A stretch of DNA of 26,678 nt from positions 1 to 26,678 of IMG/VR virus record IMGVR_UViG_3300030202_001955; one strand, 5' to 3'. A program made the position numbers and the translations under genes. The DNA is from a virus. Positions 1-24,000 of the stretch are shown here, piece by piece (positions within the stretch are counted from its first letter, which is position 1; each line of letters starts with the position of its first letter). The notes under the pieces are model-generated. The model saw only the letters and a list, made by a program, of their open reading frames with translations, had not been told where the DNA came from and did no database searches.

Positions 1-1791
1 AGCAATTTGTATTTTGAAGACAACGACAACCATGTGTATAATTCTCCTTCACCACAACAGATGGTGTTTTCACATAACATGATGAGGCGCGTTAACCCTG
101 CACTCAAACCTCTCGACCCTTCAACTACGAAAACTTACATGGCTGGCTATCAACACTCCGATAACGAACCAAACCCAAATACGCGTGTAGGTCAAGCCAT
201 CAATCAAACAATGGCTATGCAACCGGACATGCCATTGACACCGGGAGTAATCCAATCCACAGACCCCTCACTCTTCGCTCACTCTTCACATCTTCTTGAT
301 GTCGCGCTTGATGACACACTCATCATCAAAGACGATGGGAAACCACAACCAGTCAAGTTTATGCATCGCATCTTTGATTTAGAAGACTTGAAGCATTTGC
401 GCGGATTTGTTGGTGATTGGGTCATCACTTTGTATCCTCAAGGGGAACATATCATCGCGACAAAGAAAGGTAAAAAGATAACTGCTTACGGTGCTGATGG
501 TGAAATCAAGTTGGATGATGTATTCAATGAAGAAGTCAACAGGGTGCATGACAAAGATTTCGTGGTTCACGCTATACTTCATGACGGGATAATGACTGTC
601 ATTGATTTGTTAAAAACAGCAGACGAAGATACACATAATATGCCAACGAAAGACCGCATTCGTCATCTTCGCGCTCAATACGAATCAAGCGAACATATCA
701 AAATGCCCGAACCAATCAACACCAAGCGTAGTGACGATGAAGGATTATCCGTAGCAGTTGATGGATTGCAAAATGAAAACAACATGGATATTCTTTTGCG
801 CGATGCTAACGCTACATACATGAAAGGTGAACCTCGCCACCCCAAGTGGGTGCTGTTAAGTAAAGAAAAAATGGTTGATGTCATCATACTTTCGCGTGCT
901 GGTAAAAACTACACTATTGGTGTTGGACCACTCATGAACCCCGAACACTATGGTAAGCGCGCACAGCAAGTTGGTGAAGAACACTACATGAATGTAGGAA
1001 GCGCGAAAGGTCCACGCGGTTTCAATGTTGGTGACTTCGCTACGGTTCGATGCACAGGTGTGAGCGCATCTAAGAGCGAACATCCAGTATATCGTATCCG
1101 TTCAGCCAAGTTAACCGACGCTGAACCACTCGCCGCAAACAGTGTTGAAACACTTGCTATATTGGCTGGCGACCACCACATTCCTCAACAAGTCAATATG
1201 AAGAAGGGTAAAATCACAATCTTATTCCCCGCGTTTGACGATGAAGTTATTTGCAAAACGCACAAAGAAGAAGGGTTTTGGTTTGTCGAACCTCAATCTT
1301 CTATATGGGGCAATGACTATCTTGTTAAATTAGCCAACGACCAAGAAGCGTATTGGGAGGCTAAAGCCATTTGGTTGCTAAAGAGAGAAGAGTCCGAAGA
1401 ACCCGAATACGATGAAGTCAAACCCGAACCCCCAGCAGGTCATAGTAAGAAACCAAAGAAGGTTCTTGAAGAGGAGGAGGAGGTTATCAAGCGTGGACTT
1501 GAATTGATGGAGCGCGGATTGGAACATCTTACTAAAGAGAAGATTACCAGCACAGGTGTTCAAGGTCTTGGCATAGGATATGCAAGCCTCGACCACTCAC
1601 CGCGAGGACCTACTGAAAATATCCGCGATGACACCATGCCCGATTTTGACCCTCAAGCGCGAAGAGATGATGAGTTGAAGCCAGCAACTAAGAAGAAAAC
1701 CAAGAAACTGCGGACAAGTCAAGGAGAAACTGCGAGTCTTGAAGACGATGGTGTCATCGCGATTGACAAGGGTTCTATTGATATACCATGA
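1..1791 (+). CDS. 5'-truncated structural-region protein with a degenerate ATP-dependent DNA ligase-like fold
   Basis: The frame is open from the first base, so the true start is upstream; the TTG at base 7 has no ribosome-binding site and is only the first possible start codon in view. Residues are numbered from that TTG. Residues 133-300 follow the order of a ligase nucleotidyltransferase domain: a strand pair near 135-160, DFVVHAILHDG (184-194) followed by TVIDLL where ligases have DGE and FDLL, PTKDRIRHL (213-221) like the PLxxRR segment, MDILLRD (260-266) at motif IV, and HPKWVLLSKEK (278-288) at motif V. Residues 300-375 (YTIGVGP, later GDFATVRC) look like the OB fold. The motif I KxDG lysine is not visible (VGDW instead) and motif III lacks DGE, so ligase activity is unlikely. 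The C-terminal 130 residues are charged, with a glutamate run. The gene lies just before the capsid protease, where a portal normally sits, so it may be the end of a portal fusion or a separate accessory protein. The fold assignment is by eye. Confidence 0.5.
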   Translation, partial: SNLYFEDNDNHVYNSPSPQQMVFSHNMMRRVNPALKPLDPSTTKTYMAGYQHSDNEPNPNTRVGQAINQTMAMQPDMPLTPGVIQSTDPSLFAHSSHLLDVALDDTLIIKDDGKPQPVKFMHRIFDLEDLKHLRGFVGDWVITLYPQGEHIIATKKGKKITAYGADGEIKLDDVFNEEVNRVHDKDFVVHAILHDGIMTVIDLLKTADEDTHNMPTKDRIRHLRAQYESSEHIKMPEPINTKRSDDEGLSVAVDGLQNENNMDILLRDANATYMKGEPRHPKWVLLSKEKMVDVIILSRAGKNYTIGVGPLMNPEHYGKRAQQVGEEHYMNVGSAKGPRGFNVGDFATVRCTGVSASKSEHPVYRIRSAKLTDAEPLAANSVETLAILAGDHHIPQQVNMKKGKITILFPAFDDEVICKTHKEEGFWFVEPQSSIWGNDYLVKLANDQEAYWEAKAIWLLKREESEEPEYDEVKPEPPAGHSKKPKKVLEEEEEVIKRGLELMERGLEHLTKEKITSTGVQGLGIGYASLDHSPRGPTENIRDDTMPDFDPQARRDDELKPATKKKTKKLRTSQGETASLEDDGVIAIDKGSIDIP

Positions 1792-1808: not shown

Positions 1809-3218
1809 ATGGCGATTCTCGCGGCCCCGTCTTCGACCTCTAACCCTGTCATTTTGAAGGGTATTGGTGATGACCTTGTTGTTGCTGGATACGCGTCCGT
1901 TGAAATGGTTGACAAGCAAGGCGACCTTATCACCCGTTCAGCACTAAAAGATGCATTTAGCGGGTTCATGAAAGCAGAAGGATTTCGCAATGTTCAACTC
2001 GCACACTCTAACATTCAAGTAGGAACAGTTATTCCTTCTTACACTGATTCAAGTGGTCGTCTTTGGAAATCCGAAGTTGACGATACAGGAATGTTCGTAG
2101 TCATTAAACTACGCGGGGACATTGAAAAAGCCCGCGAAGTTGCATCCGAAATCCGTAAGGGCAACCTACGGTCTTTCTCAATTGGCGGTCAAGCCTTTGA
2201 GAGAGTCAATAAGAGCGACCAAACACGCGGGGATTACCGCGAAATTCGTCGTATGGAACTCCATGAGGTCACAATTTGCGAGAAAGGTATTAACCCCGAA
2301 GCGCAATTTCGCATCCTCAAGGAAGACACAGGAAATGATGATATGACCAACCCAATGAGCGAACTGCAAAGTGTCCTTGAGAGATTGTCTAAGAAACTTG
2401 ACGATAAGGATAAGGAAGAAGATAAAGAAAAGGGCTTTATGCCCGACATTAAAGACCTTGACGACGACGGCGACAAGAAAGAACCTATGGTGGAAGCACG
2501 AAAGGACAAGAAACCCGCAATGGACGACGAGGACGATGAAGACGAGGACATGATGTATTCCGACGACAAAAAAGAAGACAAGGACGATGATAAAATGGAC
2601 AAAGCAGAAGATATGATTACGACAGACTATTTGACTTGGTTAGAGTCAACCGTGAAAAGCGCAGGGTTTGACCCAAGCGCGGCTCGCGACCACTTTAACA
2701 AAGGCTACGGACCGGGTGAATCCGGCTTCGACCACCGCGGACAAGGTTCCCTTGAAGGTGCTGGCGAAGAAGATTCCGGCAAGCGACCTAAGATGGACAT
2801 GGGAGCCGCACCAAGCGGAAACAAGAATGTCATTAAGGGTGATTACCTAAACGCTTCAAATGTTTCATCCAGCGAAGTTGAAGCCGCTTACGAAGTGTTC
2901 AAGGCCGCGGCACAAGAACAACAGTTCAAGTCCGACCTTAACAACCAATTCACACAAAGGTTCCTAAAAGAACAGAAGCAAGAAGCAGATGCAGTCGCAA
3001 AGGCTAACTTCGATTCTCGCGGACCAATGGTTGAACTACAAAAAGCAGTCATCGCACTCAATGAGCGCATCGACAATGTTTCAACTGTTTCAAGCACAAT
3101 TGCAAAGTCCGCTGACCGAGCAACTGTCACTATTCCCGAAACCGCCGAACTTGCAGACATGTCGTGGGACGATGTTCACCGACTTGCTGGTAAAGCGTTG
3201 ACAGGAGGCGATTATTGA
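1809..3218 (+). CDS. Prohead maturation protease fused to capsid scaffold
   Basis: This 469-residue protein would template procapsid assembly and then digest the scaffold. Residues 15-173 match the HK97/XkdF-like serine prohead protease family: GYASVEMVDKQGD near the start, a candidate catalytic His66 in LAHSN, a candidate nucleophile Ser124 in SFSIGG, and the ELHEVTICEKGINPEAQF block (150-167) that ends these domains (usually E.SLV..PANP). Residues 180-270 are extremely acidic and lysine-rich (DDEDDEDED). Residues about 350-430 form charged helices likely to be coiled coil. The C terminus (SWDDVHRLAGKAL) is a short amphipathic helix of the kind scaffolds use to touch the coat protein. The stop overlaps the capsid gene start as TGATG, so the two are translationally coupled. 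The ATG has only a weak upstream site. Protease and scaffold in one frame is a known arrangement; the catalytic residues are inferred from motif position. Confidence 0.85.
   Translation: MAILAAPSSTSNPVILKGIGDDLVVAGYASVEMVDKQGDLITRSALKDAFSGFMKAEGFRNVQLAHSNIQVGTVIPSYTDSSGRLWKSEVDDTGMFVVIKLRGDIEKAREVASEIRKGNLRSFSIGGQAFERVNKSDQTRGDYREIRRMELHEVTICEKGINPEAQFRILKEDTGNDDMTNPMSELQSVLERLSKKLDDKDKEEDKEKGFMPDIKDLDDDGDKKEPMVEARKDKKPAMDDEDDEDEDMMYSDDKKEDKDDDKMDKAEDMITTDYLTWLESTVKSAGFDPSAARDHFNKGYGPGESGFDHRGQGSLEGAGEEDSGKRPKMDMGAAPSGNKNVIKGDYLNASNVSSSEVEAAYEVFKAAAQEQQFKSDLNNQFTQRFLKEQKQEADAVAKANFDSRGPMVELQKAVIALNERIDNVSTVSSTIAKSADRATVTIPETAELADMSWDDVHRLAGKALTGGDY
2343..3218 (+). other. Candidate internal in-frame start giving free scaffold protein
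   Basis: An ATG at the exact border between protease domain and acidic scaffold begins MTNPMSELQSVLERL. AGGA lies 9 bases upstream, in the same register as other starts in this window. Use of this start would give a 291-residue scaffold without the protease. Nested protease and scaffold genes of this kind are known (lambda C and Nu3). Use of the start here is inference. Confidence 0.4.
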
Positions 3219-4366
3219 TGGCAAGAAATTATGTAAGAACAGTGCAAGACATGGAGCGATACTATTACGGTGGCGCATCCCAAACCGGCTACACCTACGG
3301 TGCAGGTGACATTCTCAAGGCAGACGCGCCTTTGATGTCAACCACCGCTGGAACATACCAAGCGATTTACGGACGAAAAGTATGGTCACAGTTGAACCAA
3401 GAGTTCAACGCGTTTTCTATCCTTCCTAAGAAACCGTGGGAAAGAAGTGGATGGCGTATCCTTACTGGTCGCGCTGACTTTACCAAAGGTGGCGGAATTG
3501 CAGAAAACGGAACTCTACCGGACACAAGCCGACCGGAGTTCCTACATGTTGCCGCAAAGCCAAAGACCGTCGCGCACACTTTCGACCTATCGGAAGTTAG
3601 CATGTTCTTGTCCGACAAGGACGACGGATTGGGCGATGTTCGCCAAGTTCTAAAGGAAGAGATGGGTAAGCACCACGCTGAACATATCAACCGAATGATG
3701 CTTGAAGATGTTGACACACCAGTTGGCAACGACTTTGAATCCCTTGACCGTCTTACCTCCGACCCGGACAAGATGACCACAGGAACAGGCCATGTAAGCG
3801 CAACTACTGACCACGACATTTACTCTATTACCCGCGACGGAAGTGCAGATTTCCACAGCGCAGAAGTTGATGTTGCGGCTTCAAGTTCAACTAACAGAAA
3901 CCTTTCTTTGAATCAACTTGATGGATTGTTCCAGCAACTATGGACTCGCGGTGGTAATCCGAAGGTTATGCTAACTGGATATGATACTCTAATGAGAGTT
4001 CAACAGTTGCTACAATCCCAACAAAGATTCATGGACAGCAAGCGTGTCACTCCTACCTACAACGGTGTGAAAGGTGTTCCCGGTCTTGAGGCTGGTTTCA
4101 TCGTCGCAACCTACAACGGTGTCCCAATGATTCCAACAAAGGATATGCCACAAGATGGAGCAGGTTCTCTATCTCGTATGTATTATCTTGACACGGATTA
4201 CCTGTGGTTCCAAACCGCAATCCCGACACAATACTATGAATCCGGTATCGAAACCGGCGACCCATTCGCGATTAACCGTCTTGGACAAGAAGGACTCTAT
4301 CGAACTATGGGTGAGATGTGGTGTTCTTTCTTTGGTGCAAGTGGCTCTATTCGTGACCTACAATGA
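3218..4366 (+). CDS. Major capsid protein, HK97 fold
   Basis: The 382-residue product is the shell subunit. The ATG overlaps the previous stop by one base, and AGGAGG lies 9 bases upstream; an in-frame TTG one codon earlier is less likely. Features typical of the family, in order: a flexible N-terminal arm; residues 50-72 with GRKVWSQLNQEFNAFSILP; a glycine-rich E-loop-like hairpin at about 78-105 (FTKGGGIAENGTLPD); a strand (KTVAHTFDLSEVSMFL); a long spine-like helix at about 138-164; an A-domain segment with NPKVMLTGYDTLMRVQQLL (247-265) and VPMIPTKDMP; and the late GLYRTMGEMWC strand. The length is normal for a mature HK97 coat without a delta domain, fitting a separate scaffold encoded just upstream. 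The highly ordered codon use and strong ribosome site suit a very abundant protein. Family assignment is confident from pattern and context; no covalent crosslink residues were assigned. Confidence 0.88.
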   Translation: MARNYVRTVQDMERYYYGGASQTGYTYGAGDILKADAPLMSTTAGTYQAIYGRKVWSQLNQEFNAFSILPKKPWERSGWRILTGRADFTKGGGIAENGTLPDTSRPEFLHVAAKPKTVAHTFDLSEVSMFLSDKDDGLGDVRQVLKEEMGKHHAEHINRMMLEDVDTPVGNDFESLDRLTSDPDKMTTGTGHVSATTDHDIYSITRDGSADFHSAEVDVAASSSTNRNLSLNQLDGLFQQLWTRGGNPKVMLTGYDTLMRVQQLLQSQQRFMDSKRVTPTYNGVKGVPGLEAGFIVATYNGVPMIPTKDMPQDGAGSLSRMYYLDTDYLWFQTAIPTQYYESGIETGDPFAINRLGQEGLYRTMGEMWCSFFGASGSIRDLQ

Positions 4367-5811: not shown

Positions 5812-6078
5812 ATGGACTTACACGAACTGCAACGGCTTGAAAAACAAGGCTGGCGTAAAGCCGAAGAGTCAATGGTCAAGACCGATGAGCGCGACAAGTT
5901 GAAAGGTGTTGTTAAGCGTCAAAACATGAAGACGCGCAATATCCGAGATATTGTCAACATCGGTGCTGGCACTCGCTGTAAGTTCTGTGGCATGTTGCAT
6001 TTCTGTTATCTTGAACGATGCGGAGCGTGTAAGAAGCCAATGGACTACAATCTCGCTAAAACCGAAGAGGTGATTTGA
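5812..6078 (+). CDS. Small zinc-ribbon protein
   Basis: An 88-residue protein starting at ATG 3 bases after AAGGTGAT; an upstream in-frame GTG at 5788 lies inside the previous gene and has no site. Residues 1-50 are strongly charged and helical (KAEESMVKTDERDKLKGVV). Residues 56-73 form a zinc knuckle pair, Cys56-x2-Cys59 and Cys70-x2-Cys73, with an extra Cys65 and His63 between them. This is the classic two-knuckle zinc ribbon. Such proteins bind nucleic acid or act as assembly factors; the position among head genes suggests a structural or morphogenetic role rather than transcription control, but either is possible. The stop overlaps the next ATG by one base (TGATG). Confidence 0.68.
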   Translation: MDLHELQRLEKQGWRKAEESMVKTDERDKLKGVVKRQNMKTRNIRDIVNIGAGTRCKFCGMLHFCYLERCGACKKPMDYNLAKTEEVI

Positions 6079-6419
6079 TGAATCCTATGGAAAAAGCATG
6101 GATATTACTCAAAGAGTTGACTGCGGAACAAGAGCAAAGGTTGGAAGAGTTAGTTCAATCCGGTGACGGATATATGGCAGACCAGTTGCGTCAAGCATAC
6201 GAAGCAGGGAACGCCGCTGAACAACAAGCGCGTGAATCTAAACCTGTGATGACACCTAAAATTCAACAAGATTATGTTGACCCGCTCGCGGCCATCCAAG
6301 AACAAAAAGATTCAGCGGCGGCGGTGAGGAGAGCAAAGAAACAAGGACGAGTTAATTCACCACATTACAAAGCGTTGCGCGATGCACATGAGGCAAAATA
6401 CGGGAAAATGAGGCGATGA
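6078..6419 (+). CDS. Small charged protein with the MNPM-x2-AW-xx-LK N-terminal tag
   Basis: This 113-residue protein starts at ATG overlapping the previous stop, with GAGGTGAT just upstream. It opens with MNPMEKAWILLKELT, a tag shared with two other small genes in this window. The rest is Glu, Gln, Lys and Arg rich and probably one long helical or coiled-coil region (EQEQRLEELVQ, then QLRQAYEAGNAAEQQARES), ending in a basic tail (KALRDAHEAKYGKMRR). There is no membrane segment or catalytic motif. It lies between the zinc-ribbon gene and the connector. An internal capsid or assembly role is possible; no family is recognised. Confidence 0.68.
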   Translation: MNPMEKAWILLKELTAEQEQRLEELVQSGDGYMADQLRQAYEAGNAAEQQARESKPVMTPKIQQDYVDPLAAIQEQKDSAAAVRRAKKQGRVNSPHYKALRDAHEAKYGKMRR

Positions 6420-6422
6420 TGT

Positions 6423-8003
6423 ATGCCTACGGTTTTTCAAACAGGTGAACGCGAAGGACGACCTTTATTCCCCGATAGGCTTTACTACACATCTGCACAG
6501 AAAGTAGCAGACATTCTTCAAATACCATTCCCCGACCCTGTTTATTTGGCCGCAGAAGATGGTGGCACAGATGTTGACATTTCCCCCGCAGACTACCGAC
6601 TGGTTGGTTTTGAAGTAGGTGATAAAATTGAAATCACCAGCGATACTGAAATGGGCGAAGAGCGAACTATTACAGCAATTACTCGCGCTTCCGGCAATGT
6701 GCGTCTTTCTTTTACGGGGGTTTTGACGGGTGATTATACCACAGCGGATAACGCGCAAGTGCAGAATCTTCAATCATTCACCAACGGTAAGCGAAAGGGT
6801 GTGACTAAAGCGCAAGTTGAAACTCTCATCTTGCGAACACAAGACAAGATTGACAACCTAACAAACAACGCGTGGCGACCTATGTTGCAGACCGCAGAAT
6901 ACATCAACTTTGACACATACAAACCATACCGACGCAGATACTATACCGATTATGTTGGGACTACACCATTGCTATTCCGCAATGTGCAACACATTCTTCG
7001 ACTTGAGATATGGCAAGGTGCTGATTATCGCGAGATAGCCGCGGCTGAAATACGATTGAAGATTGAAGACTTTACTCAAATAACGGCTGATACTGACAAA
7101 GTGTTCCTATGTCCCGGTGGGGGTGGTGTTGCAACACTCACAGCAGGTGATGGCTCATCGAAGTTCCGCGCGCAGTTTGATAATGTAAGCACAGCGCAAC
7201 AACTCGCAGACCTCATCAACATGGATGCGCGCAAAGCCAAGAGTGCAACACCGTTCAGTCCATCTTTTGAGTTTGAAGATGTCACCGAGGCTGATGGGAC
7301 GATTACAGCCAATGTTCATCATGAGTTCATGGCTTCCGCGAACGCTGATTACGGTGGCGGTCAAATTAAAATTACTTCTATGCGTCGTGGTGAAGCAGGT
7401 GAGAACGCAACCTACGCTTGCACATCATCCGGTGTCACATTTACAGGGGCAACTGACACAAGTAAAACGGTGTCATCATCCACAGCCACCACTATCGTTC
7501 TCAACGATGTCACAGGTCTTGCACCATACGGCATCATCAGTATTGGTGCAACACACGGATACTACACCAGCATCACAGGAACTACACTCAACGGTGTAGT
7601 TGACCTCGTAGGTGACATTAGTGCGGCGGCAACCAACGGTGCAACACTTCTTCAAAAGAAATTCAAGATTGATTATGTCGGAACAACCACAGGTGACGAG
7701 GCTCGTCTTCGCGATTGGTGGGCTGACTACGATATGGGTATCATTTACTTCAACAACTCATACCCTTATTTCTCATGGAACGCAGTCAAGGCATCGTATG
7801 TCTATGGTGAGCGATATGTTGAGAAAGCGATTGAAGATATATGCACCAAATTGGTCGCGATGGACTTGATACTGTCCGACGACCGAAGCGTGCTACTACC
7901 CGAAGGAACACAGAATGTGGACTTGGGTAGCAAGTATCAACTATTCAAAGCGCAAGTGGCTGAAACACTACCGCGCTACACAGAAGTAATGACGGTGTTG
8001 TGA
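6423..8003 (+). CDS. Head-tail connector (adaptor) protein with inserted beta modules
   Basis: This 526-residue protein probably joins the portal to the tail. The signature is split. Residues 126-155 (VTKAQVETLILRTQDKID, then NNAWRPM) have the helix pattern of gp6-like connectors. The last 80 residues, with YGERYVEKAIEDICTKLVAM, give the paired C-terminal helices. Between them sits a large beta-rich insert. Residues 240-345 contain TAQQLADLI, GEAGENATY and FTGATD, a module widespread in tail and neck proteins. Residues 355-410 (DVTGLAPYGIISIG, YYTSITG, LNGVVDL) form a second small beta module. Residues 55-115 resemble a further beta barrel (VGDKIEITSD). It is about four times longer than a plain connector, so it may add a collar or neck ring. 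The next gene follows after 4 bases. Role from motif pattern and position; moderate confidence. Confidence 0.62.
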   Translation: MPTVFQTGEREGRPLFPDRLYYTSAQKVADILQIPFPDPVYLAAEDGGTDVDISPADYRLVGFEVGDKIEITSDTEMGEERTITAITRASGNVRLSFTGVLTGDYTTADNAQVQNLQSFTNGKRKGVTKAQVETLILRTQDKIDNLTNNAWRPMLQTAEYINFDTYKPYRRRYYTDYVGTTPLLFRNVQHILRLEIWQGADYREIAAAEIRLKIEDFTQITADTDKVFLCPGGGGVATLTAGDGSSKFRAQFDNVSTAQQLADLINMDARKAKSATPFSPSFEFEDVTEADGTITANVHHEFMASANADYGGGQIKITSMRRGEAGENATYACTSSGVTFTGATDTSKTVSSSTATTIVLNDVTGLAPYGIISIGATHGYYTSITGTTLNGVVDLVGDISAAATNGATLLQKKFKIDYVGTTTGDEARLRDWWADYDMGIIYFNNSYPYFSWNAVKASYVYGERYVEKAIEDICTKLVAMDLILSDDRSVLLPEGTQNVDLGSKYQLFKAQVAETLPRYTEVMTVL

Positions 8004-8007
8004 TAAT

Positions 8008-8391
8008 ATGAACCCAATGAATGAAGCATGGATATTTTTGAAGGCGAACCCCGATATGACTGACTCCGAAGGACGAACCGTTCCTCCCGCGGTAATGAAC
8101 TACGCTCAATATGCACGCGCTTTACAAGATAGTATAGATTACAACCTTCAAGAAGAATACCCCGATGCAATTGTAGCCGATTCCACTTACGATGATAACG
8201 CATCACGATTCCGTCAAAATCTAAAAACAAGTCCTTCATTTAGGCAAGAAAAAGTTGGCGGAGAAACTATGCAAGAACATCACGACTTCGCTCGCGACCG
8301 AGCAAAGCGCGACACAAGCATGTATATGAATCAAGACGAAGGACATAATCAGTTTGGAAAAGACCCACATGTCCAAAGAATGCCCCGGTGA
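8008..8391 (+). CDS. Small charged protein with the MNPM-x2-AW-xx-LK N-terminal tag (second copy)
   Basis: A 127-residue hydrophilic protein whose first residues MNPMNEAWIFLKANPDM repeat the tag of the gene before the connector, although the rest of the two proteins does not align by eye. The codons differ at silent positions, so the likeness is at protein level. The body is rich in Asp, Gln, Asn and Arg (NYAQYARALQDSIDYNLQ) and ends with a basic, His-containing region. No membrane or catalytic signal is visible. It lies between the connector and another small gene. Its ribosome site is weak (TGTGATAATATG), implying coupling to termination of the connector four bases upstream. Confidence 0.68.
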   Translation: MNPMNEAWIFLKANPDMTDSEGRTVPPAVMNYAQYARALQDSIDYNLQEEYPDAIVADSTYDDNASRFRQNLKTSPSFRQEKVGGETMQEHHDFARDRAKRDTSMYMNQDEGHNQFGKDPHVQRMPR

Positions 8392-8395
8392 TAAT

Positions 8396-8665
8396 ATGAA
8401 AGAAGCAATCAAGAAGGCTATCGCTAAGGCTATGATAGAGCCTGTCATGAAAGCGCGTGAGAATAGCGTATTCAGTGATGAAGGGTATGTTTTCCTTGAT
8501 GCGTGTGCCTCTACCTATGACGCATCAGTTAGTGACGGAAAGTTGATTGACGCGAACGGAAAGGTGATGGATAAATCAAGCCCCGAATACAAAGCAATAG
8601 TTAACATGGCTAAGATACAGGCTCGCGCACAATCAAGTGTGGGGAGTGATTTGATTGGCCCTTGA
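8396..8665 (+). CDS. Small hypothetical neck-region protein
   Basis: The 89-residue product starts at ATG 3 bases after CGGTGAT, which overlaps the previous stop; an in-frame TTG at 8354 has no site. It opens with a strongly amphipathic, basic helix (MKEAIKKAIAKAMIEPVMKA) followed by a short alpha/beta body. It is not recognised. Its last 11 bases overlap the next gene. Given its place between connector and tail genes, it could be a head-completion or neck protein. Confidence 0.6.
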   Translation: MKEAIKKAIAKAMIEPVMKARENSVFSDEGYVFLDACASTYDASVSDGKLIDANGKVMDKSSPEYKAIVNMAKIQARAQSSVGSDLIGP

Positions 8666-9095
8666 ATCTGTTGAACTCATCAAAGGTATTCTCACCGATG
8701 GGTGGAATCGCGGCAATACAGACCAGCGAACACCTATCATTGAAGACATCACTACGGTTGAGGCTGGTCGCGGAAAGCGTCTTGACCTCACTAACAAAGA
8801 CGCTATACTGCTGTATGAAACTGTCCACAACGAAGAACAGCCGGAAGTATTCTATGATTTTGTCCACACGCGAATCAATGTCACCGTTGATGCGCGAACA
8901 ATGAGTGGCAGAAAACATCTCATGAAAATTGAAGATGAAGTTCGGCGCATTATTCACAGCAAAAGAAAGGGTGACGGTGCTAATTTTGACCGATTACTCT
9001 ATAAGATGAGAACTGACCTTTCGGATAGAACGAAGAGGCTACATCGCATGACCTTCCAAGTCGAAATAGTGATATTCTCGGAACTCATCGCGTAG
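8655..9095 (+). CDS. Putative tail terminator or neck protein
   Basis: The 146-residue product starts with TTG, 4 bases after GGAGTGAT, overlapping the previous gene. The pattern is an N-terminal helix (ELIKGILTDGW), a strand block with YDFVHTRINVTVDART, a central helix (HLMKIEDEVRRIIHSKR), and a final long strand HRMTFQVEIVIF. This alpha/beta order, together with the position directly before the tail-tube gene, fits the tail-terminator/neck family (lambda gpU and HK97 gp10-like), which caps the finished tail. No diagnostic residue is visible, so the assignment leans on gene order. Confidence 0.5.
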   Translation: MALESVELIKGILTDGWNRGNTDQRTPIIEDITTVEAGRGKRLDLTNKDAILLYETVHNEEQPEVFYDFVHTRINVTVDARTMSGRKHLMKIEDEVRRIIHSKRKGDGANFDRLLYKMRTDLSDRTKRLHRMTFQVEIVIFSELIA

Positions 9096-9115
9096 GACAA
9101 GGCGGAGCAGATAAT

Positions 9116-11029
9116 ATGGCATCAACAGTGTATAAAGGCGACTTATCCGAAGTGACATTCGGCAAAGAGTGTGGAATAGCGTTAGCGTATGACGGCTTCG
9201 GTGGTCTTCGTTTCGCGACAAATGCCGCTGGCACTTTAATCACTTTCACAGGCGCAAGCGAAGGTTTCTTTGACGGCTCATCTAAACTTCGCTACCCTGT
9301 TGGGATGCTTGTTGGTTCACAACTTCGCGTCATTGGTGGTGGCAACTTCACCCTTGATGATAACGCTACCAAAGGCCATGTTTATACAATTGTTGCAAAC
9401 AGTGGTGATACAATCACAGTTTCCCCACCAATGAAAGAGGTAAGCACTACATCGGTATCCGGTGATGAACTACTCATTGATACCGTAGGAACACCAACAA
9501 TTGACACAGGTATGACATTTCACGCATCCGCTTCTTCTTCGGATGAATCAGTTCTTACTGACCAATTCATCGGACTTGCCGCAACTGTCGCGCTACCGGA
9601 AACAAAAGTCGAAGTGCGCCGTTCACACATTGTAGGTGTAGGCCGTGATGTTGTCATTCAAGAACCTCAACGCTTCTCTAACGAAGGTGGTTCTCTTGAA
9701 TCAATGATGAACAGCGCGCGCTGGTTGTATTACGCGCTTGGTCGCGAAGTCATTGATATTCCCGCCGCACTCATGACCGACCCAAGTGGACACGGAAAAC
9801 TTGACATTTCAAATGGTGACTCTTACATTGGCTACACAGGCACACTATCCAACCTCGCCGCTGGTGACTATGTTATTGTTCAAGATAGCACAGCAACAGA
9901 TTTTCCTAAAGACACACCTGCCGCCGCATCAAAAGAATGGGGTGCTGACGGTGTTGGTATAGATATGGAGAATACCGAGCGAAACGAAATCCGTCAAGTG
10001 CTTTACATTGATACAACTACGCGACGAATCCATGTTGAAGAACCATTTCACTTTAATCACCTTGCGAGTGTATATTCATTGAGGGCTTTGAAATACGATA
10101 CAGGCTCAAGCAACGGTTCACCGGATTTCGTCACTACCGCCGCCAACTTCGGAACAATCACCAACCGCCAATCACGACTTCTGTTCTCCGGTCCTACGCT
10201 CCCGTCTTTTGCGATTGAGTCCAGTATCCGAACAACCAATAGTGGCTCATTCAACGCCAGCGCAGAAGGTATAGGTGCGCCCGGTTCAGCAAACGACAAC
10301 AAGCAACTTACGCGCGTTTGGAAAGGATGCAAAGTGAAAGACTTCTCTATCGCGGCAGACGCAGATGCAGAAGTCAAACTATCAATCAATTTTGATGCGC
10401 TTTACTGTTATACCGACACAGGCCGTCTTGAGAACAGCAACAAAGGTGATAGATACACCGCACACCGCATGTTTGAGAACACTGCTAACAGCGTCATTAA
10501 CCGTAAGAAGGCCGGTATCGCACCAAACACCGAGAAACCATTCTTCTTTTACAATGGTCAAATCAGTTCATTCGGAATCAACATCGCGCAAGTCACCAAC
10601 TTTTCACTAAGTGGTAATAACAACGCAGAAGCAATTTACACTATTCGTGGCAACAGTCAAGCAGAATCTCGCAACACTGCTGGTGATTCTCTTGAGCAAA
10701 TACCATTCGGTGGCTCACGCAATGCTAACCTCATGATTGAGAAGGCTATGGAATACGAGTTGAGTATGAGCGTCATTGCATCCGACCCGTTGATTTGGCA
10801 TGAGTTCCGAACCAACAGAACACACGCGTTCACTGAACCAATCACACTCACACTGACAAAGGCTGGTTCCGGTGCTAACCGCGAAGAGGTTATCATTGTC
10901 ATTGACGACTACATTATCACGGAAGCACCGCTTCCTATACCCGAAGATAAGGGTGTTATCAAGAGTGAGTTGAAGATTATGCCGAAGCATGTTCGCGTAA
11001 TTTCACACGACGCATTCTTACACATGTGA
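9116..11029 (+). CDS. Major tail tube protein, enlarged with extra beta domains
   Basis: This 637-residue protein is likely the subunit of the tail tube. It starts at ATG 8 bases after GGAG. The C-terminal third carries the pattern typical of tube proteins: WKGCKVKDFSIAADADAEVK from about residue 404, then SSFGINIAQVTNFSLSGNNN from about 483, then NLMIEKAMEYELSMSVIAS. These are long beta strands broken by a short helix. Residues 60-150 and 225-310 are extra beta modules (VGSQLRVIGGG and NLAAGDYVIVQD patterns) not found in minimal tube proteins of 150-300 residues, so the surface of the tail may be decorated. The chaperone and tape-measure genes downstream support this role. The stop is joined to the next ribosome site (TGAGGTGA). 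Confidence 0.68.
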   Translation: MASTVYKGDLSEVTFGKECGIALAYDGFGGLRFATNAAGTLITFTGASEGFFDGSSKLRYPVGMLVGSQLRVIGGGNFTLDDNATKGHVYTIVANSGDTITVSPPMKEVSTTSVSGDELLIDTVGTPTIDTGMTFHASASSSDESVLTDQFIGLAATVALPETKVEVRRSHIVGVGRDVVIQEPQRFSNEGGSLESMMNSARWLYYALGREVIDIPAALMTDPSGHGKLDISNGDSYIGYTGTLSNLAAGDYVIVQDSTATDFPKDTPAAASKEWGADGVGIDMENTERNEIRQVLYIDTTTRRIHVEEPFHFNHLASVYSLRALKYDTGSSNGSPDFVTTAANFGTITNRQSRLLFSGPTLPSFAIESSIRTTNSGSFNASAEGIGAPGSANDNKQLTRVWKGCKVKDFSIAADADAEVKLSINFDALYCYTDTGRLENSNKGDRYTAHRMFENTANSVINRKKAGIAPNTEKPFFFYNGQISSFGINIAQVTNFSLSGNNNAEAIYTIRGNSQAESRNTAGDSLEQIPFGGSRNANLMIEKAMEYELSMSVIASDPLIWHEFRTNRTHAFTEPITLTLTKAGSGANREEVIIVIDDYIITEAPLPIPEDKGVIKSELKIMPKHVRVISHDAFLHM

Positions 11030-11039
11030 GGTGAACAAG

Positions 11040-11183
11040 ATGAATCCGTTTAGAGAAAGTTGGGGAATGCTACTGAAAAAAAATATGTGCAAAGAAGATG
11101 ACTGTAAAGGTTGTCGAGGTTGTAAGACCTGCGCTGAATGCAAAGAAAAAGGCTCAACTTGTGAAAAGATGGGGTGCGCTTGA
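11040..11183 (+). CDS. Cys-ladder mini-protein with the MNP-tag
   Basis: A 47-residue peptide starting at ATG, 5 bases after AGGTGA. Its opening MNPFRESWGMLLK is a third version of the tag in two other small genes of this window. The rest has eight cysteines; five of them (22, 25, 28, 31, 34) are spaced exactly three residues apart, giving four overlapping CxxC pairs. Such spacing could hold zinc or an iron-sulfur cluster. The stop overlaps the next ATG (TGATG), which supports reality. No family is recognised. It sits between the tail-tube and SAP-domain genes, an unusual place for a metal-binding peptide. Confidence 0.68.
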   Translation: MNPFRESWGMLLKKNMCKEDDCKGCRGCKTCAECKEKGSTCEKMGCA

Positions 11184-11620
11184 TGAAGCGCGACATGCAT
11201 ATTGGTGGTGAACGACCGCTTCACATTCGTGCTGTTGAGAAAGACACTTTCATCGCTGAACCCGTTGAAGAAGTGTTCAACCCCGAAGCCGCAAAAACAG
11301 ACGGTAATCCATTTCCCGAAGAACAACAAGAAGAAGTTGTTGAAACCACACCTGTTGGAGAAGAAGGTCCAACTGATTACGAATCCTTAACCGTTGAAGA
11401 ACTGAAAGCACTCTTAAGAGCGCGCGGTCTTGATGTTAAAGGTAAAAAGGCGGAACTCGTTGCTCGCCTAATTGAAGCGGATACCCCCTCGGAAGAGGCA
11501 GTTGAAGTGGATGAAGTCGTTCCTTCGCAAGAAGCCGCGACAAGCGATGATGGAGTAAGTGAGAACAATGCCGAAAATAGCAGACCCGATGAGCCTCTTG
11601 GTGAACAGCCAAGCAGTTGA
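11183..11620 (+). CDS. Acidic protein with a SAP domain
   Basis: The 145-residue product starts at ATG overlapping the preceding stop; an earlier in-frame GTG at 11174 is less likely. Residues 66-100 (YESLTVEELKALLRARGLD then VKGKKAELVARLIEAD) form a clear SAP motif: two helices joined by a bend with the conserved Gly and Lys. SAP domains usually bind DNA. The flanks are very acidic (EEQQEEVVETTP and SEEAVEVDEVVP) and look disordered. It precedes the chaperone pair, and its last 53 bases overlap the first chaperone. Its place between tail tube and chaperone genes is unexpected for a DNA binder; it may act as a protein-protein adaptor. Confidence 0.7.
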   Translation: MKRDMHIGGERPLHIRAVEKDTFIAEPVEEVFNPEAAKTDGNPFPEEQQEEVVETTPVGEEGPTDYESLTVEELKALLRARGLDVKGKKAELVARLIEADTPSEEAVEVDEVVPSQEAATSDDGVSENNAENSRPDEPLGEQPSS

Positions 11621-15086: not shown

Positions 15087-18000
15087 GTGGCGGTTATTGG
15101 TTTATCGAGTCACGCGCTATTCTTTAATGGTGTAAGTGATAGCGTTGTTTGCCCTCAAGGTGATTTTACCAAAACTGGCATCAAACGCGTTCTTAATGGT
15201 GTTGAAGCGCGCTCATCAGCACCTATACTACAAGACGATGACGGACATCGTTTCGCTAACCCCAACAATCAATCGTTGAATAATTTCACAGTAGAAGCAT
15301 GGGTATCACCGGACTGCGGTGGAGTTATCGCCAGTAAAGCAGGTTTGTTTGAACTTCGTATGGGGGACATCAATGGACCGGATGCCGCTTCATTCAAAGT
15401 TGAGTTCTCTAACGGTGTGACCGCGATAGCATCAAGCGCAAATAGTTATCCAACAGCGGCGGCATCATTCATCAGCAACAATGTTGGCTACAACACAGGA
15501 CAGCGCGAACTGTATCACATCTCCGGCGAGTTCAACGGAGAGCAGGTCAAACTTTATGTCAACGGAGAATTGATGGCTTCGCATAAAATGAACAAAAAAT
15601 ACTCATGCAATATCAATGACCAAGACTTATTCATTGGTGGTAAAGGTGGTGAGTATCGCGGATACATAGAGTCACTCCATTGGAAAGCGGATGTGTCAAC
15701 TATGGAATCGCGCGCAAAGCCGTTTATGCTATCAACAAGCACTCTTGGTCTTTGGAGATTTGAAGAGCCTGTTGATGTTGACAGCACTGTGTTTAAAATC
15801 ACATCTAATGTAGCGGCAGGTGCAACATCAATCACTATTGGGGCAACTCAATGTCAATCGCTTTACGAACTGGTGAGTGGTAAAAGCGACACACTGGCAA
15901 CAAACTACACACTTGATAGTCTTGGTAATTACCGAGTTGCTAATGCGGCACATAGCGGTGGTGCGCAAGTTATCAGCGTAGCCCATACGCCGTTCAATCT
16001 TCTCATAAACCCAACAGCGACAGATATTCTCACAGGTATCCCTAACGGTTCTCCGCCGGAAAGAGTTCGACTCAAAGCAATCAACACCAACGGAACTATC
16101 ACAGTTGACAGCATCCACCTCGACTTCGGTGTATCACTTGATACAGGTTCGCGCGGTGTATTACACGCACGAACAGCATTTGACACAAGCAACAATTTTG
16201 CAAATGATTCAACAATGGTTCTTGTTCGTTCGGACATACTCATCGACGGAGAAAGCGGGAAGCCGTATCAAAGAGTTGGAACAGGTAGTCAAGCGATTGA
16301 CAGAACAGGAGCGATGGTTATTGATGAGAGTGCCAATGAGTTTCACGGCTTCTTGTATTCGCGCTCACTTGCTGTCAATACGAATAACTTTGCACCTTCT
16401 TCTTGGAGTATTGCGGAGCGTTTCAAAACAGGACACACAGGTCGTCATCATTTTACTCAATTAGAAGGACACCCTTACCTGCGTTTATTACCTCCAATCC
16501 ACGAACAAGAATTAACAAGAACGATTGATGGAATAGCAGATGACGCGCTAATCACATTTGCTGGGAGTTATCTTGGACTCAAAGATTCTTTACCAATTAA
16601 CAGCAAAGTTGCTGTCACGCATACAGCGTTCAACGCTCGTATTGTTGATGTAAAAACAAGTGCGACAACTAACGGTGTTGTTCTCAACGGTATGCATGGA
16701 ATAGAAAATAACCGCAACGGTGTAATCGCAATATCAGTTGATGACATCGAACCATTCTTGTTGAAAGGTGGAGGTATTGGTGTATCATCAACCACTGATT
16801 CTCAATACACAAAACATCTTACACCCGAAACAGAATCACGCGTTGCTATTCTTGAAGTGTCGGGATTGACCGCTGGTTATGTTGAGATTCATTACAACGC
16901 AGTTGACCTTACAGGTGGTAAAATGGGTTTAAGCAACCCTGCATTGCTCATCACCAAAACCGTTCCCGATGGTGGTTGCTTTCTTAATTCAAAGCGCGTA
17001 GCCGAACATATTGCTGATGCCGTTGGTGCTGGCGCGACAATACACTCACCGGGCGGTGTTGTGATTGCCTCATCGAAAGATGTTGGAAGTGCGCAAGTAG
17101 CGATGAAACCTCATCACCTTGTTGGTGATAACACAGGTGGTATTGAATACGACGAAGAATTAGATGAAAGCCTCATACCTTCAAATCACACACCTCTTAG
17201 CGCAGGTGATGAAGCACGCGCGCCACCTCAAGGTGTTGGCACAAAACTTCACCCATCGGTATATCACAAAATACATATTCAACCCAATCAAAGAAGTCAA
17301 AGCGACCCACCTGTTGGAGAAGCCCCAACTCACTATCAAGAATCTGTTCAATTCGCATCACAGAAAGGTGGCGCGTTTGAGATGTTTGACATTATTGACA
17401 ATGATAAAAAAGGAGATTCATACATTTTTATCGTTCAACCATCTAAACGCGAACGCACAATGCAATTGTCAAGAGTCACACCTGTATCAATAGATGCTAA
17501 CGATTCAACTTATTTCACTATTGAATATGTTCAATCTAATGTGCGCGTCACTTCTATGGAAGTTAATGATTCGGGAATGGGTCGTTTTCTTGTCATGGAG
17601 GGTCAAGGGTTGATGAGTGATGTCGCAGACCAAACTGTATCATACTCCGGTGATGGTAGTCGCGATTCTCACATTGTTAAAGAGATACAACCGGGTGCGC
17701 CTGTCGTATCAGTCACTCTTGGTGGCGCAGGTCAAGGTGCAATCAACACAAAACCAACTTGGGACCCAGCCGCTTTATCGCGAATTGGATGGAATACGCG
17801 ACATGATTGCACAACAATGGTGCAATCATTCACAAGCACCACTCTCACTGTTGTTCCTTTGAATAATAATGGCACTTATCTTGACAGTTGGGGGACATAT
17901 TGTTTTCCGGCAACAGGCCGTATCTATTTAGAAAACGGCGCATACGCTGAATATGCATCAAAAAGTGGTAGCGGATTTACATTCGCAGGTGGAGCAACAC

Positions 18001-21000
18001 ATCTTGGAACAAGTAAGTATGTCTTAGCCAACGGGAGAGATACTACTTCATTCGCGCAATGGGCAATTGAAAACTCTATAACCGCGGGAATAAAAATACT
18101 ACTTGACCCACTTTTCGATTCGTTATCTATTTGCGGTGATGGAACTACAATAAATGACAGGTTGTTTCAGTCGATTGGTTCTGTAAAACATGATTACCAA
18201 CTCGGAACACAGTATGCAAGCACACGCGCGCTTGCTGAAATACCACTCTTCCCTCAACAGTTCTTTGAAGACCGCGATGCTGGTCTTTTCCCCGGACCGG
18301 ATAACAGCATGAAGTTGCATCTTGATGCAACAATGACTGCACAAGCATGGAACCCTTCGCCTGTTGGTCGTCGCGCACCAAACTTCCCCGCAACAGACTA
18401 CGAAGCATTCGGTTATTATCAATATGCGAAAAGCAACAATTTACCTATCCGAAGCATTGTCACTGAAATCACAAGAAACGCTTCGACCAACACAATGAAT
18501 CTTAATACAAATGTTATACCCGATTCAAAATTTGACTCTTTCGGTGATGTATTAGGTGTTAGCACACAAAGAACGCGAAGAATTGTATTAGGTAATGGTG
18601 AATGGGCTTATTATGAAAAAACCGGAGTTGGGGTATGCCAACTTACTCTAAGCAATTTGGCTTCTCATTCGAGTGAAAATTTCTTTTCAACTGTTCGTGT
18701 TGGTTCACAAGTTATAGTTGGTGAATTACCCGACAACTCTAATTTTCCACTTGCTGGTGATGTTGGTTATGGTTCATCCGCTCAAGAATATCGTCGTCCG
18801 TTTTACTATGACCGCGGTAGCGTAATGACGCAGGGTGGTAATCTTGACTATGGATTGCGTCAATATGTTAGCGCAGTCGAGTTCAAGGCTGGTCCAACAT
18901 CAAACCCTCATTTACCGCGCATTAAAAGTAAAAACGCGGTGCTGGATTTGATACTCTATACGCCGTTATCAAGTCCACAGGAATTTACTTTTGAGGGTGA
19001 TTTACCAAAAGGTAAGTTATCAACAAATTATCATTTCGCGGGCATCAATGAAGTCACAGGAAGAAAATACAGAATCAATTACAATTCTTCAACTAATGCA
19101 AATTTGATTACTGTTGAAGCACACCCAATACTTGACTCAACAGCACCCGCTCTTTCGCAAGGAGATAAACTCACACTGCTTGGTGTTTATTCTGTTGCCC
19201 CGACAACTATGCCTTTGAAGATTGAAGACGGTATTGCGAACGCAACATGGAATAATCCGTATTGCCCCGGTGGACTGCGCTATGGTGATACTGTTTGGAT
19301 GAATATGCACTACACCAACCCTCACGCCATAGAAGGAATGTTCGCAAAATCGCGCGGTGTGTTAAACGAATACGAAGTATGGCGAGGCTTCAACGGTGGT
19401 AAGGGTGAGTTAGGAACAGAAGCGCGAGATACATTACCAATCGAGAACTTTCTCATAGGTGATACCTGTCTTGAAACTGCTCGCAACTTTGTTCAACATG
19501 TGAACAAGACCATCGAACTTAACTGGATTGAACTTGGTCACGAAACAGACCCAACACAAGCCGATTACAGTGCGCCACCTATCGTTGCATACCTCGACCC
19601 TTATCTTAGCACAGAACAACACGCGCGAGTCTTACTCTATGATGTAGCACATGACCGTGAGTTCATCGCGTTTCATGACCTACACATGCAAGTGCAAACA
19701 AACCCAACCACTCCAACAATCAACGGGCTTGATGTAGCGGCTGGTTTTAGAACACAAAACAAAGATAAGCAACTTATCACTAAATATAATTCTCAAACAC
19801 TCAATAGCGTATCATACACTTATGAAGATGGTCATGGTAAGTCACAGTTTGTTGAAGGTGCATACGCGCATCGCGCTTGGTATTTGATGGACCAGTCGTT
19901 TATGGTCACTACTGGTAGTGCGGCATTGCAACATTACAATCGCAAAGAACGAAACACTCCACATTATGTCAAATTCGGTCATGAAACAACACAGTATGGT
20001 CAAGGTCGCGTATCTCAATCAACGGTTGATATGGACATAGCCGCTTTGCGCCACGCTGAAACTATACCTTACAATGAATCCAATGATGTTCAACAAAATA
20101 GCCTAACAGCACCTCAATTTACAGCAACATTTTTTGACACACCCGAAGGAACTCGCGTCATATCGGCATTCCTTTGTTTGAAAGGTAAGCGCGCAAATGC
20201 TAACAATCTTTCATCTCATTACGAAAATAGATTGCAACACTTACCGCATTGGAGTGAAATGGACTTTATTCGTCGCTTGACGATAGATATGGGTGAAATA
20301 GGAATCAAAGAAGGTGTGACTGATATTGAAGCCGCCGCAAAAGAAGTTGTTCGTCTTATCAATCAAGGTGGTGCATTCAATGGTCGTAGCAGTCAACGAC
20401 GACCATCCGACCAATACGCCGGAGAAGGAGAAAGGTTCGACATCAATCGTCGTAGTATTTCGACAGGTGGCACAGATACAGAAGAACCAACAGACGCTAC
20501 CGCGGTTCATCAACACGCTGACTTTGCTGTGACTGGTTCAACTCACGACCCTGCACCGTTTTGGATGGATAACGCGTTCACATCATTTGACCGTGGTTCA
20601 CACATGGGTTATCTTCGCGCACATTTAGGTCGCGTAGTTGAAGACGCTAACGGAAACGAAGGATACAGTATCGTCATACATAGCACAGTTCCGGGTGCAA
20701 CAGGTCGTAATTTCTGCGTTTGGCTTGACAACAGCAAATCACAAGCCGAATACAAACCGCAATTCCTTATCGGTCACGGTGGTCGTTTCCGTAATTTTTA
20801 CTGCGCGCCGCCGGAAATGGCCGGAGAAAACATGCACCCTGCGCCAATGCCAATTGACAAAAACGGTAAGCCATTTGCACCAATTACAACATTAAGAGAG
20901 TATGTTGCTTTAGATGAAGCCTCGGATGAGTTCTTTACAAATCAACATCTTGGGTTTGATAAAAATTACAACACGACGATGGAGGGAGAAGAAAGTCCTA

Positions 21001-24000
21001 ACACCGGAGCAACAACTGGACGCGCTTCAAACACAGGTAATATGGAGTCTTTTGAGAACAGTGGTCAAAAGTTCACTGTGCGCGAAGGATTACAAACAGG
21101 TAGTCGCGCTAAAGCACGAATAAATTTTGGTGGTATTGTAGCCGCTGGCATTCCCGGTTTCGCCCCGGACGCAGGTATATGGGGATTCGGAGAAGATGGA
21201 AAAGATACAGGTCGATTTATGTCTTCGATATATGGTAATCATTTACTTACCACAGATGTAAATTACAATGTGTATCCTAAATATGCACCAACCGCACAAA
21301 CAGGTGACGGTGTAGTAGGAACTCAATCTTTGTATGGATTGAAAATGGTTGACCATCGAGGAAAAGCGCACATTCTTCGCTATATTTATCGAACAGAAGG
21401 TCAAACTTTTTCGCATAAAAACTCCGTTATGCCACCAACCATTGATGAAGAAACGCTGATTTACTTTGATGACCGTGATATTGCGCAAGGTGGTTTTACG
21501 ATTGGTGCAAACATGTGGGGTAATGGAGGAAACGGAACGCCTTTCTTTTACGAAACAGGAGCAGTTGGACAGGAATCTCGCAGTTGGCGAGGTAATAAAT
21601 GGAGAGGGGTTCATACACCTAACGCTGGATACGCCGTTGCAGTTGACCCCACAATGGCTGATAACACTTTCAGTTTGACACAAGGCGGTGGCGCGGCTGG
21701 TTATCACGGTGGTGGAATTTGGCATCATCTTCCTAATACTGACGATGTTCTTGGATGGATGGGTTTTCCCGATAGTGGGTTAATTTGGATGGCTATACCC
21801 GCCAGTGCATCATTATATGGTGAAATCGGTGCTGTTTTTTCATACACTTCGCGCACTCATAATGGTCGTGGTGGTCCACATCATTTCTTCGGTATCAATG
21901 GAGAATTGATGACGAGTGGTAATATGAATGATGTGTGGTTTGACACAGCCGCAAAGTGTGGACCAACAAGCATTTCTCAAAACAAAACTCCTGTCATCAT
22001 CAGTCCACACTTAAATCAAACAACCATAGTGACTGACGAATTGATAGCCGCGGCTACTGCTTATGCTTTCACCGTTGACCCTAATGAAGATGACCAATAC
22101 TTTGATTGTTCACATTTGCGCGCACCGGACGGTCGCACTTACGGAGAAATCATGGGGAACAATGCGCAGACTGCTGTTAAAATAACCAAATTTAATCGCG
22201 ATAAAGAAGTCATACCACTCAAGAATATGTTTTCTGTATCGCTTTCGCGTGATTGGGGACTTCAAGCAAGCACAATAGATTCGCAGGTTATCACTGGTTC
22301 TGCTGGTGGTCAACTCGGTGGTGCGCAAGTGAATCATCGAAAAAGAGAAAGAATGAATGATACGGGCTACCTACCATACACTTTGTTGCAGATAACCACT
22401 CGATATAAAGGAAGCAACGCGAACACTGCTACACCAATACTCATCGACCAAACAAACAATTCTGTTCCGGTTGATGATTGGAAAAAACATTTGCGTGGCG
22501 AAAAACACACACGATATGAAGGTGACCATATCACACCATCTCTTGGTGCATCAACATACGAAATTAACGCGCAATCGGGTTCATTAACATTGCCCGGTGG
22601 AACTGCTCGCACAACTTATCAAATAGAACTGCGCGACCCTGCGCATTTTGCTGTGCTTGGTCGTCAATACGCTTGGCAACTACAACATGTTAGCGGTGGA
22701 ACAAATCTCAATTTTGATTCATCGACTGAATTTAGCGGTGCGATTGATGGCTCATGGTCACCATTTAGACGAATGGATATTGATAAGGATACATATTTAC
22801 ACTGCGCGGCTTTTAGTTCTATTGATAATCCAACTAATGTTGCTAATCATCTCATCGGGTGGAAACATGATGACTCGGTAGGTGACTTCAAAGATACTTT
22901 AGCAGTTGACCTCATTATGCAACCATTCAAATTTGAAAACGACATACAAGGATTGCGTCTTCGCGCTAATCGAAGAGGTAATCCTTTGTTGTATTTCCGA
23001 GGCGCGCAAGACAGCATTGACAGTCATGTTCCGCTTTACTTTGGTGGTGGTTTTAGTGGAGTTGTAATGGACATCAATGATGGGTCAAGAGTTGACTATT
23101 CAACGCATAATAAACACCCATACGCTAAAGGACCAACGGGTAGTGCAGGTATGCAAGACATCGGTGAAAAGATGGGTGCATACGCGCTTCTTGACACAAC
23201 AGCGTTGTTTGCTATGTTCCCCGCCGCTGTTCTTGCAAACCAACACCGCGGTGAACCATCACCACCGTTCGCTAACCAAGACGCTATACTCAACCCCGAC
23301 ATTGATGGTAATACCAACACTCACACTATTCCTAACACAACTTACACCAATGTCAAAATCGCTCAACCAACACCTGTTGTATTGAGATTTGCTCACCCAT
23401 ACGCGCGATATGACGATTCTGTTAACAGCGTTGCTTACATGGTCTTTGGTCCGGGTCAAGCGGTTCCTAAGCATTGGAGCGGTGAAGGTGCTACTTTAAC
23501 AACATCAGTTGAACCTTCTGCTAAGTGGACAGTTGCAAACAAAATATATACCGCGCTTGACGGCGCAGTTGGAACAACATTCAATGCAGGTGTGCCATCG
23601 GGATATTTCCTACCAAACGAATTAAGCAACGGAACTCTTAATGGTGCGGCAAATCAATTTTTACCACCAACAGACGCATATAGCGCGAACAATGCATTTC
23701 CTTACACAACCTTCCGACATTGGGAGCCGTCGTATGGTTCACCAAACAGCGCGTTTAATCAAACTTTTTCAACAGAAGCACGCTATGTTAGCAATCATTT
23801 TGTTAGTTTTAATTCCGGCGCACAAAGCGCGGCCAACGAATACGCTCATCCATTCTCGCATTATCGGGGTGCTACAAGATTCGCAAACAGTCATTGGGAA
23901 TTAAGTCAAATGATATATCATCTCGATGGTGGATACACTGCTGGTGGTTCTTGGTTTGACAATAGCGTGCGAAAAAATGCACCACACCCTGTCACAGCAA

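Follow-up and report, generated by a model that had tools for sequence, protein, structure and literature searches.

Why should three small and otherwise unlike proteins of one virus begin with nearly the same dozen residues? The question is raised by the window, which is the whole analysed stretch of 26,678 bases from IMG/VR virus record IMGVR_UViG_3300030202_001955. Its genes run from the C-terminal part of a large protein, through an S78 prohead protease with an acidic scaffold-like region, to an HK97-fold major capsid protein (MCP). Small head and tail genes are located 3′ of the MCP, followed by genes for a SAP-domain protein and a tape measure protein and, last, by that for a giant protein, which continues beyond the end of the stretch. 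The MCP shares 34% identity over 98% with its counterpart in Haloarcula virus HCTV-1, has 591 relatives in IMG/VR, and matches no solved structure in the PDB. The related MCP and protease, encoded in the order protease to MCP, place the window among the HCTV-1/HVTV-1-like archaeal tailed viruses. Family B DNA polymerase (PolB) occurs in eight of 12 long relatives and, together with the haloviral-type MCP, fits magroviruses as compared by their published description only (PMC10160649). The gene profile and that publication point to marine group II archaea as the putative hosts.

Several neighbouring genes have features of their own. The large protein upstream of the protease has no match in Pfam and PHROG searches, and the label of a suspected DNA-ligase-like domain was dropped for this reason. 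The protein is also encoded just upstream of the protease in the related record L199 (4586-10432), and HCTV-1 has a zeta-toxin-domain protein at this position. The open frame of 3,864 codons that runs off the 3′ end (15087-26678) probably encodes a giant tail or fibre protein; relatives L227, L238, and L196 have long frames of about 4,600-5,300 aa. The SAP-domain protein (11183-11620, Pfam E=2.4e-15) is acidic, and its gene adjoins the tagged gene for a Cys-ladder miniprotein. SAP domains usually bind DNA.

A shared element at the start of unlike proteins

The first-pass annotation had placed the shared N-terminal tag on genes starting at 6078, 8008, and 11040, and all three are present there, as ORFs of 113 aa (6078-6419), 127 aa (8008-8391), and 47 aa (11040-11183) with the starts listed in Table 1. 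Their bodies are unlike each other, as had been claimed, and belong to three different families. The body of the first protein is probably helical, and neither it nor the second has a match in Pfam or PHROG. Tags 1 and 2 have the 11-mer GCATGGATATT in common. Tag 3 contains Ser in place of Ala and one extra residue ahead of LLK; the start of its gene was assigned to the ATG at 11040, despite an in-frame GTG at 11031, because of the GAGGTGA located just upstream. When the window was scanned with degenerate DNA letters encoding MNP-h-xx-[AS]W, two matches were obtained (6078 and 8008), against 0.01 matches expected from dinucleotide shuffles, and two matches were found in none of 100 dinucleotide shuffles of the window.

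Table 1. Features of the window, with presumed cut positions marked by an arrow (↓) and phi-L-K denoting a hydrophobic residue followed by Leu or Ile and by Lys
Feature	Position	Strand	Remarks
Large protein, C-terminal part	7..1791	+	About 1,950 aa in relatives; encoded upstream of protease
Lys codon of tag-like A-I-W-L-L-K	1381..1383	+	C-terminal part of large protein upstream of protease
S78 prohead protease fused to acidic/coiled scaffold-like region	1809..3218	+	Pfam PF04586 E=1.4e-9; PHROG head maturation protease 3.7e-14
Lys codon, phi-L-K↓[GSA] site ahead of protease domain (residue 17)	1857..1859	+	40/40 non-redundant homologues; K17 invariant (21-sequence alignment)
Lys codon, F-[RS]-I-L-K↓[EQ] site at protease/scaffold junction (residue 171)	2319..2321	+	40/40 homologues; I169, L170, K171 invariant
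Lys codon, N-x-V-I-K↓x site in scaffold-like region (residue 343)	2835..2837	+	Mostly conserved
MCP, HK97 fold, HCTV-1/HVTV-1 type	3218..4366	+	PHROG phrog_24667 4.4e-59
Lys codon, [DE]-[IL]-L-K↓[AS]-D site near MCP N-terminus	3317..3319	+	14/14 non-redundant homologues
Tag 1, MNPMEKAWILLK	6078..6113	+	Predicted cut after K12 (codon 6111-6113); in all orthologues with visible start
Body 1, 101 aa, pI 8.3, Glu/Gln/Lys-rich	6114..6419	+	Family 2
Tag 2, MNPMNEAWIFLK	8008..8043	+	Predicted cut after K12 (codon 8041-8043); kept in orthologues, internal in L066
Body 2, 115 aa, pI 5.1	8044..8391	+	Family 7
Tag 3, MNPFRESWGMLLK, variant with one extra residue	11040..11078	+	Predicted cut after K13 (codon 11076-11078)
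Body 3, Cys-ladder miniprotein	11079..11183	+	Family 1

The tag is kept in orthologues of the three genes. Profile searches with the bodies alone identified 20, 7, and 16 distinct stretches for bodies 1, 2, and 3, respectively, and the tag is present in every case where the match extends to a start within the contig. Over 175 tagged genes, P3 is encoded by all four CCN codons, A7 by GCA, GCG, or GCT, and L11 by all six Leu codons. The variation at silent sites reported for the window extends to these genes, and the conservation is thus at the protein level.

The idea that a shared address tag defines a set of proteins that a motif search can list is borne out by the related genomes. One strict DNA scan of viral contigs provided 94 stretches, and the viral-contig tag search, MCP-anchored loci, and whole-virus pieces together contain 259 distinct tagged proteins from 116 body families. 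Both outcomes that, according to the first-pass annotation, would refute the idea, namely an absence of further tagged proteins from related genomes and a lack of conservation in orthologues of the three genes, are contradicted by these results. The consensus is M-[NTS]-[PA]-[FMLI]-[DNE]-x-A-W-x-[LVFI]-L-K, followed mostly by A, M, E, or G, and the 12 residues are predicted to form a helix. The strict scan required M-N-P, A-W, and L-K; at position 2, roughly one in three of the collected proteins has T, S, or a different residue. A relaxed tag pattern matches the ORFs of 12 long virus records 117 times, as opposed to once in reversed ORFs and zero to two times in shuffled ORFs, and 63 of the 117 tags are positioned at ATG starts of separate genes. 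When ORFs were picked by the first half of the tag alone, 147 continued to phi-L-K; clear tags that depart from this end have LLRK, IVK, or one extra residue. Judged from these patterns, the first half and the phi-L-K end may be separate functional halves. We found no report of the tag in the open-access literature, which was the scope of the search.

The tagged genes are linked to the head genes. In the 12 long records, 115 of the 117 tags are on the capsid-gene strand, and the strand of the tags and MCP is opposite to that of DNA polymerase B in all eight records that have one. In six records, a distance of about 14-32 kb separates the main tagged cluster from the capsid gene, which lies downstream of the cluster; in others, as in the window, tagged genes are 1-8 kb downstream of the capsid gene. 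Tagged genes often adjoin each other. The S78 prohead protease of the window is present in 37 of 39 tag-bearing records; of the other two, one is a record of 257 kb in which the only motif is doubtful, and one is a fragment of 25 kb. Ten of 53 MCP-anchored loci of at least 12 kb are without a tag in the stretch read.

Most of the tagged bodies match nothing. Those with matches include an HD phosphohydrolase (HD_4, 1.2e-6), YspA/SLOG (9.5e-8), and DUF7831 (4.8e-38), and there are weak matches to an acetyltransferase and a ParB-like protein. The DUF7831 and YspA/SLOG genes (L220:11632-12060 and L220:12061-12537) are adjacent, both tagged and both TTG-started, and possibly encode a nucleotide- or NAD-related cargo pair. 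In the model of a family 3 protein (L033:274-750, mean pLDDT 77), the tag forms a separate helix at residues 3-14. Among the PDB matches listed for this model, almost all have the ADP-ribosyltransferase fold (Tpt1/KptA, Arr, PARP), and the similarity is weak (best E 7.5e-3, TM about 0.4), so that the ADP-ribosyltransferase-like assignment of the body is a lead only.

Matching sites in the prohead protease and the capsid protein

The tag ends in phi-L-K↓[A/E/G/M], and sites that match this end are conserved in the S78 protease encoded by the virus itself and near the N-terminus of its MCP. The site ahead of the protease domain has the pattern x-[VIL]-[VIL]-L-K↓[GSA], and that at the protease/scaffold junction, extended by one residue relative to Table 1, is [QT]-F-[RS]-I-L-K↓[EQ]. 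In the AF2 model of the window protease, which has low confidence overall and was used with caution for its linker prediction only, K171 is within a low-confidence linker (residues 159-183) and K343 is at the end of a low-confidence stretch (residues 311-344), both of them modelled as unstructured. K17 borders a predicted strand and is not in a clear linker. A tag-like A-x-W-L-L-K is also present in many relatives of the large protein upstream of the protease, of which 26 of 41 homologues have phi-L-K at the place of A-I-W-L-L-K, in several cases as KAAWLLKE. Furthermore, phi-L-K occurs inside the folded MCP core (residue 145, VLKEEM, 11 of 14 homologues), so that more than this triplet is needed to define a cut site.

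The haloviruses HCTV-1 and HVTV-1 have homologous MCP and protease, and equal site positions in the MCP and at the junction. However, their sites differ, with V/M-S-K↓A-D at the aligned place in the MCP, V-S-K↓A at the protease junction, and VSK↓A again at the scaffold and gp106 sites, and no AWxxLK tag is found at the starts of the late proteins listed. The capsid and junction sequences have thus changed together in the haloviruses, as is expected if one enzyme reads both, in a match that represents one closely related lineage. Methanogen viruses were compared as further lineages, of which vir519 is weak but suggestive (N at both sites) and vir335 is unclear. HK97 gp5 has a lysine at position 103, before Ser104. 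The mature HK97 gp5 starts at Ser104, and is cut by a protease of the same family as the S78 protease. From the aligned sites, the S78 prohead protease appears to use phi-L-K on itself and on the MCP; the identity of these sites with the end of the tag suggests cutting rather than proving it.

The first-pass annotation had offered two roles for the tag, a loading signal or a propeptide removed by the prohead protease. Both gain support from the phi-L-K end that recurs in the protease and MCP and from the late strand, and it is from these that we infer packaging and cleavage themselves.

Internal tags and the proposed function of the element

The tag had been described as N-terminal, but it is not strictly so: internal copies, unforeseen in that description, are present in polyproteins. 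A tag without a start codon mostly reads [GS]-E-P-M-D-x-A-[WFM]-[RQ]-L-L-K. Among the 12 records there are 13 ORFs with more than one tag (two to five), each tag opening a new unit, and an 839-aa ORF of L213 contains five. The units of 11 families are found in single tagged proteins as well as internally, and the similarity begins directly after the Lys, as in MNPMQRAWLFLK↓MPVVDTNVPG compared with TGEPMDLAWRLLK↓MPVVDTDIPE. Many multi-tag chains (e.g. L189:13813-16695) end in one common basic domain, KYRxxLNxERRRRGIYGxGxxDVSHTxGGKLTLExxHxNRARHFK, the sequence of which reads like an HNH-type or DNA-binding domain.

Since the tag ends in an apparent cutting site of the virus's own head protease, it is probably a loading label for proteins inside the particle. 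We estimate a probability of about two in three that the 12 residues are a module for capsid targeting and processing in a group of marine archaeal tailed viruses, and that this module is partly delivered as a cleavable polyprotein. The odds are even for the wider proposal that this one portable module loads and matures an open-ended set of effectors virus-wide, either one by one or in polyproteins that are delimited by tags and that the prohead protease dices in the assembling head, with the units swapped freely between viruses.

The first step of the targeting and processing mechanism is seen in the sequences: late genes encode many small proteins, the presumed cargo, starting with M-N-P-F/M-D-x-A-W-x-L-L-K or, alternatively, polyproteins with G-E-P-M-D-x-A-W/F-x-L-L-K before each unit. 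The element is predicted to be a short N-capped amphipathic helix, the face of which, formed by F/M4, A7, W8, and L10/L11, would dock on the protease-scaffold core or the inner shell. Docking during prohead assembly would pull the cargo inside. The S78 prohead protease would then cut after the Lys, freeing a single cargo protein or dicing a polyprotein, and the protease and scaffold would also be cut for head expansion. The freed cargo (HD, SLOG/YspA-like, ADP-ribosyltransferase-like, Cys-rich, and basic proteins) would stay in the head with the DNA, enter the next host cell, and may act there early against or on the host, by analogy with the IPs and Alt of T4 and Dar of P1.

It is unlikely that the tag is for docking only, with a helix that remains on the protein after attaching it to part of the virion, be this the scaffold, portal, inner shell, or tail. 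Such a helix would account for the conservation of the whole element (P, F/M, D, A, and W), not just of its last residues, and multi-tag chains could bind multivalently, but phi-L-K would have to be part of the binding face, with a coincidental resemblance to the protease and capsid sites. The Lys is nearly invariant, phi-L-K is fixed at the borders of the protease domain and near the MCP N-terminus, and every unit of a polyprotein has its own tag, with homology starting after the Lys, where a single tag should suffice.

A function in cleavage only is improbable. The tag would then be an extended recognition site at which the prohead protease, or a protease of the host, separates the units of a polyprotein, and a relic without targeting in single proteins. 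The MCP and protease sites are without the P-F-D-x-A-W part, which is hence not needed for cutting and yet is kept in single proteins, and the tags at ATG starts of separate genes have nothing to separate; what the cleavage function does explain is that phi-L-K is identical to the presumed self-cleavage sites and that the tags are interdomain in polyproteins.

Some of the bodies (HD, SLOG, and acetyltransferase-like) could act in the producing cell, where the tag might address them to a host factor, such as RNA polymerase, a chaperone, or the proteasome, or to an intracellular virus compartment. An address in the infected cell instead of the particle is very improbable, given the confinement of the tag to the late strand with the head genes and its co-occurrence with the prohead protease. 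Furthermore, the strict pattern returned only six stray matches from about 85,000 prokaryote species, five of them in ORFs of at most 33 codons, which indicates that hosts do not share the tag. The frequent adjoining of tagged genes would suit N-termini without present function that were spread by recombination or duplication among small genes, but this has a negligible probability, because synonymous codons vary freely and the tag persists both in orthologues that have diverged and at places other than start codons. On these data, the free codon variation also rules out that the tag reflects a regulatory element in the DNA at the start codon.

Relation to known cargo-loading systems

The proposed targeting and processing module resembles the capsid targeting sequence (CTS) of phage T4, which is carried by IPI, IPII, IPIII, and Alt and cut by gp21. 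Ten CTS residues of IPIII suffice for loading, with positions 4 and 7 contributing to targeting and 8 and 10 to processing (PMC9026906), and the CTS has 10 aa in IPIII and 7 for Alt (PMC9026906, PMC3012670). Both in T4 and in the archaeal viruses, a short N-terminal element is found on otherwise unlike small proteins and the cargo, putative in the archaeal viruses, is diverse and fast-changing; that of T4 differs from phage to phage (PMC9026906, PMC3012670, PMC5694885). The layout is also similar, as early residues of the CTS target and the last form the protease site, and the archaeal-virus tag has a hydrophobic face and then a charged P1 residue. Alt is a packaged ADP-ribosyltransferase (PMC9026906), to which family 3 may correspond according to its model.

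The two elements differ in sequence. The annotated leader of T4 IPII has 10 residues (AA -10 to -1, MKTYQEFIAE), and MKTYQEFIAE↓A and MNPFDxAWxLLK↓A have no similarity recognisable by eye; P1 is Lys here and Glu in T4. Further differences are the archaeal tailed viruses as carriers, the fusion of the S78 protease to a scaffold, the many more cargo families, the tags inside polyproteins, and packaging that we infer here. The tag shares with a T4-type CTS a short N-terminal element on unrelated bodies, in addition to which it has internal copies, and a virus-encoded prohead protease. It thus appears to work like a CTS, but it is not filed as a member of that class because it has no sequence relation to the T4 CTS that is recognisable by eye.

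In the jumbo phages SPN3US and phiKZ, inner-head ejection proteins have propeptides that are removed by the prohead protease and were proposed to target the head (PMC5694885), but these are mostly longer than 100 residues, have no shared 12-mer, and are cut after A/S-x-E. The Dar proteins of P1 (DarA, Hdf) are packed into the capsid and co-injected, and the prohead protease removes the N-terminus of DarA; however, no common short tag is described for them (PMC12810830).

What is new beyond the first-pass annotation is the match to the phi-L-K sites, the tags inside polyproteins, and the cargo matches (HD, SLOG/YspA, and ADP-ribosyltransferase-like). Magrovirus-type viruses are abundant and mostly uncultured and, to our knowledge, nearly all of their small genes are unknowns. 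Should the tag indeed mark cargo, searching for the motif would list what each virus carries into its host, and more than a hundred anonymous families would become candidate effectors. The archaeal tailed viruses would then have a counterpart to the T4 CTS, with polyproteins as a new mode, and the element would provide a short helix to try for loading proteins into archaeal capsids.
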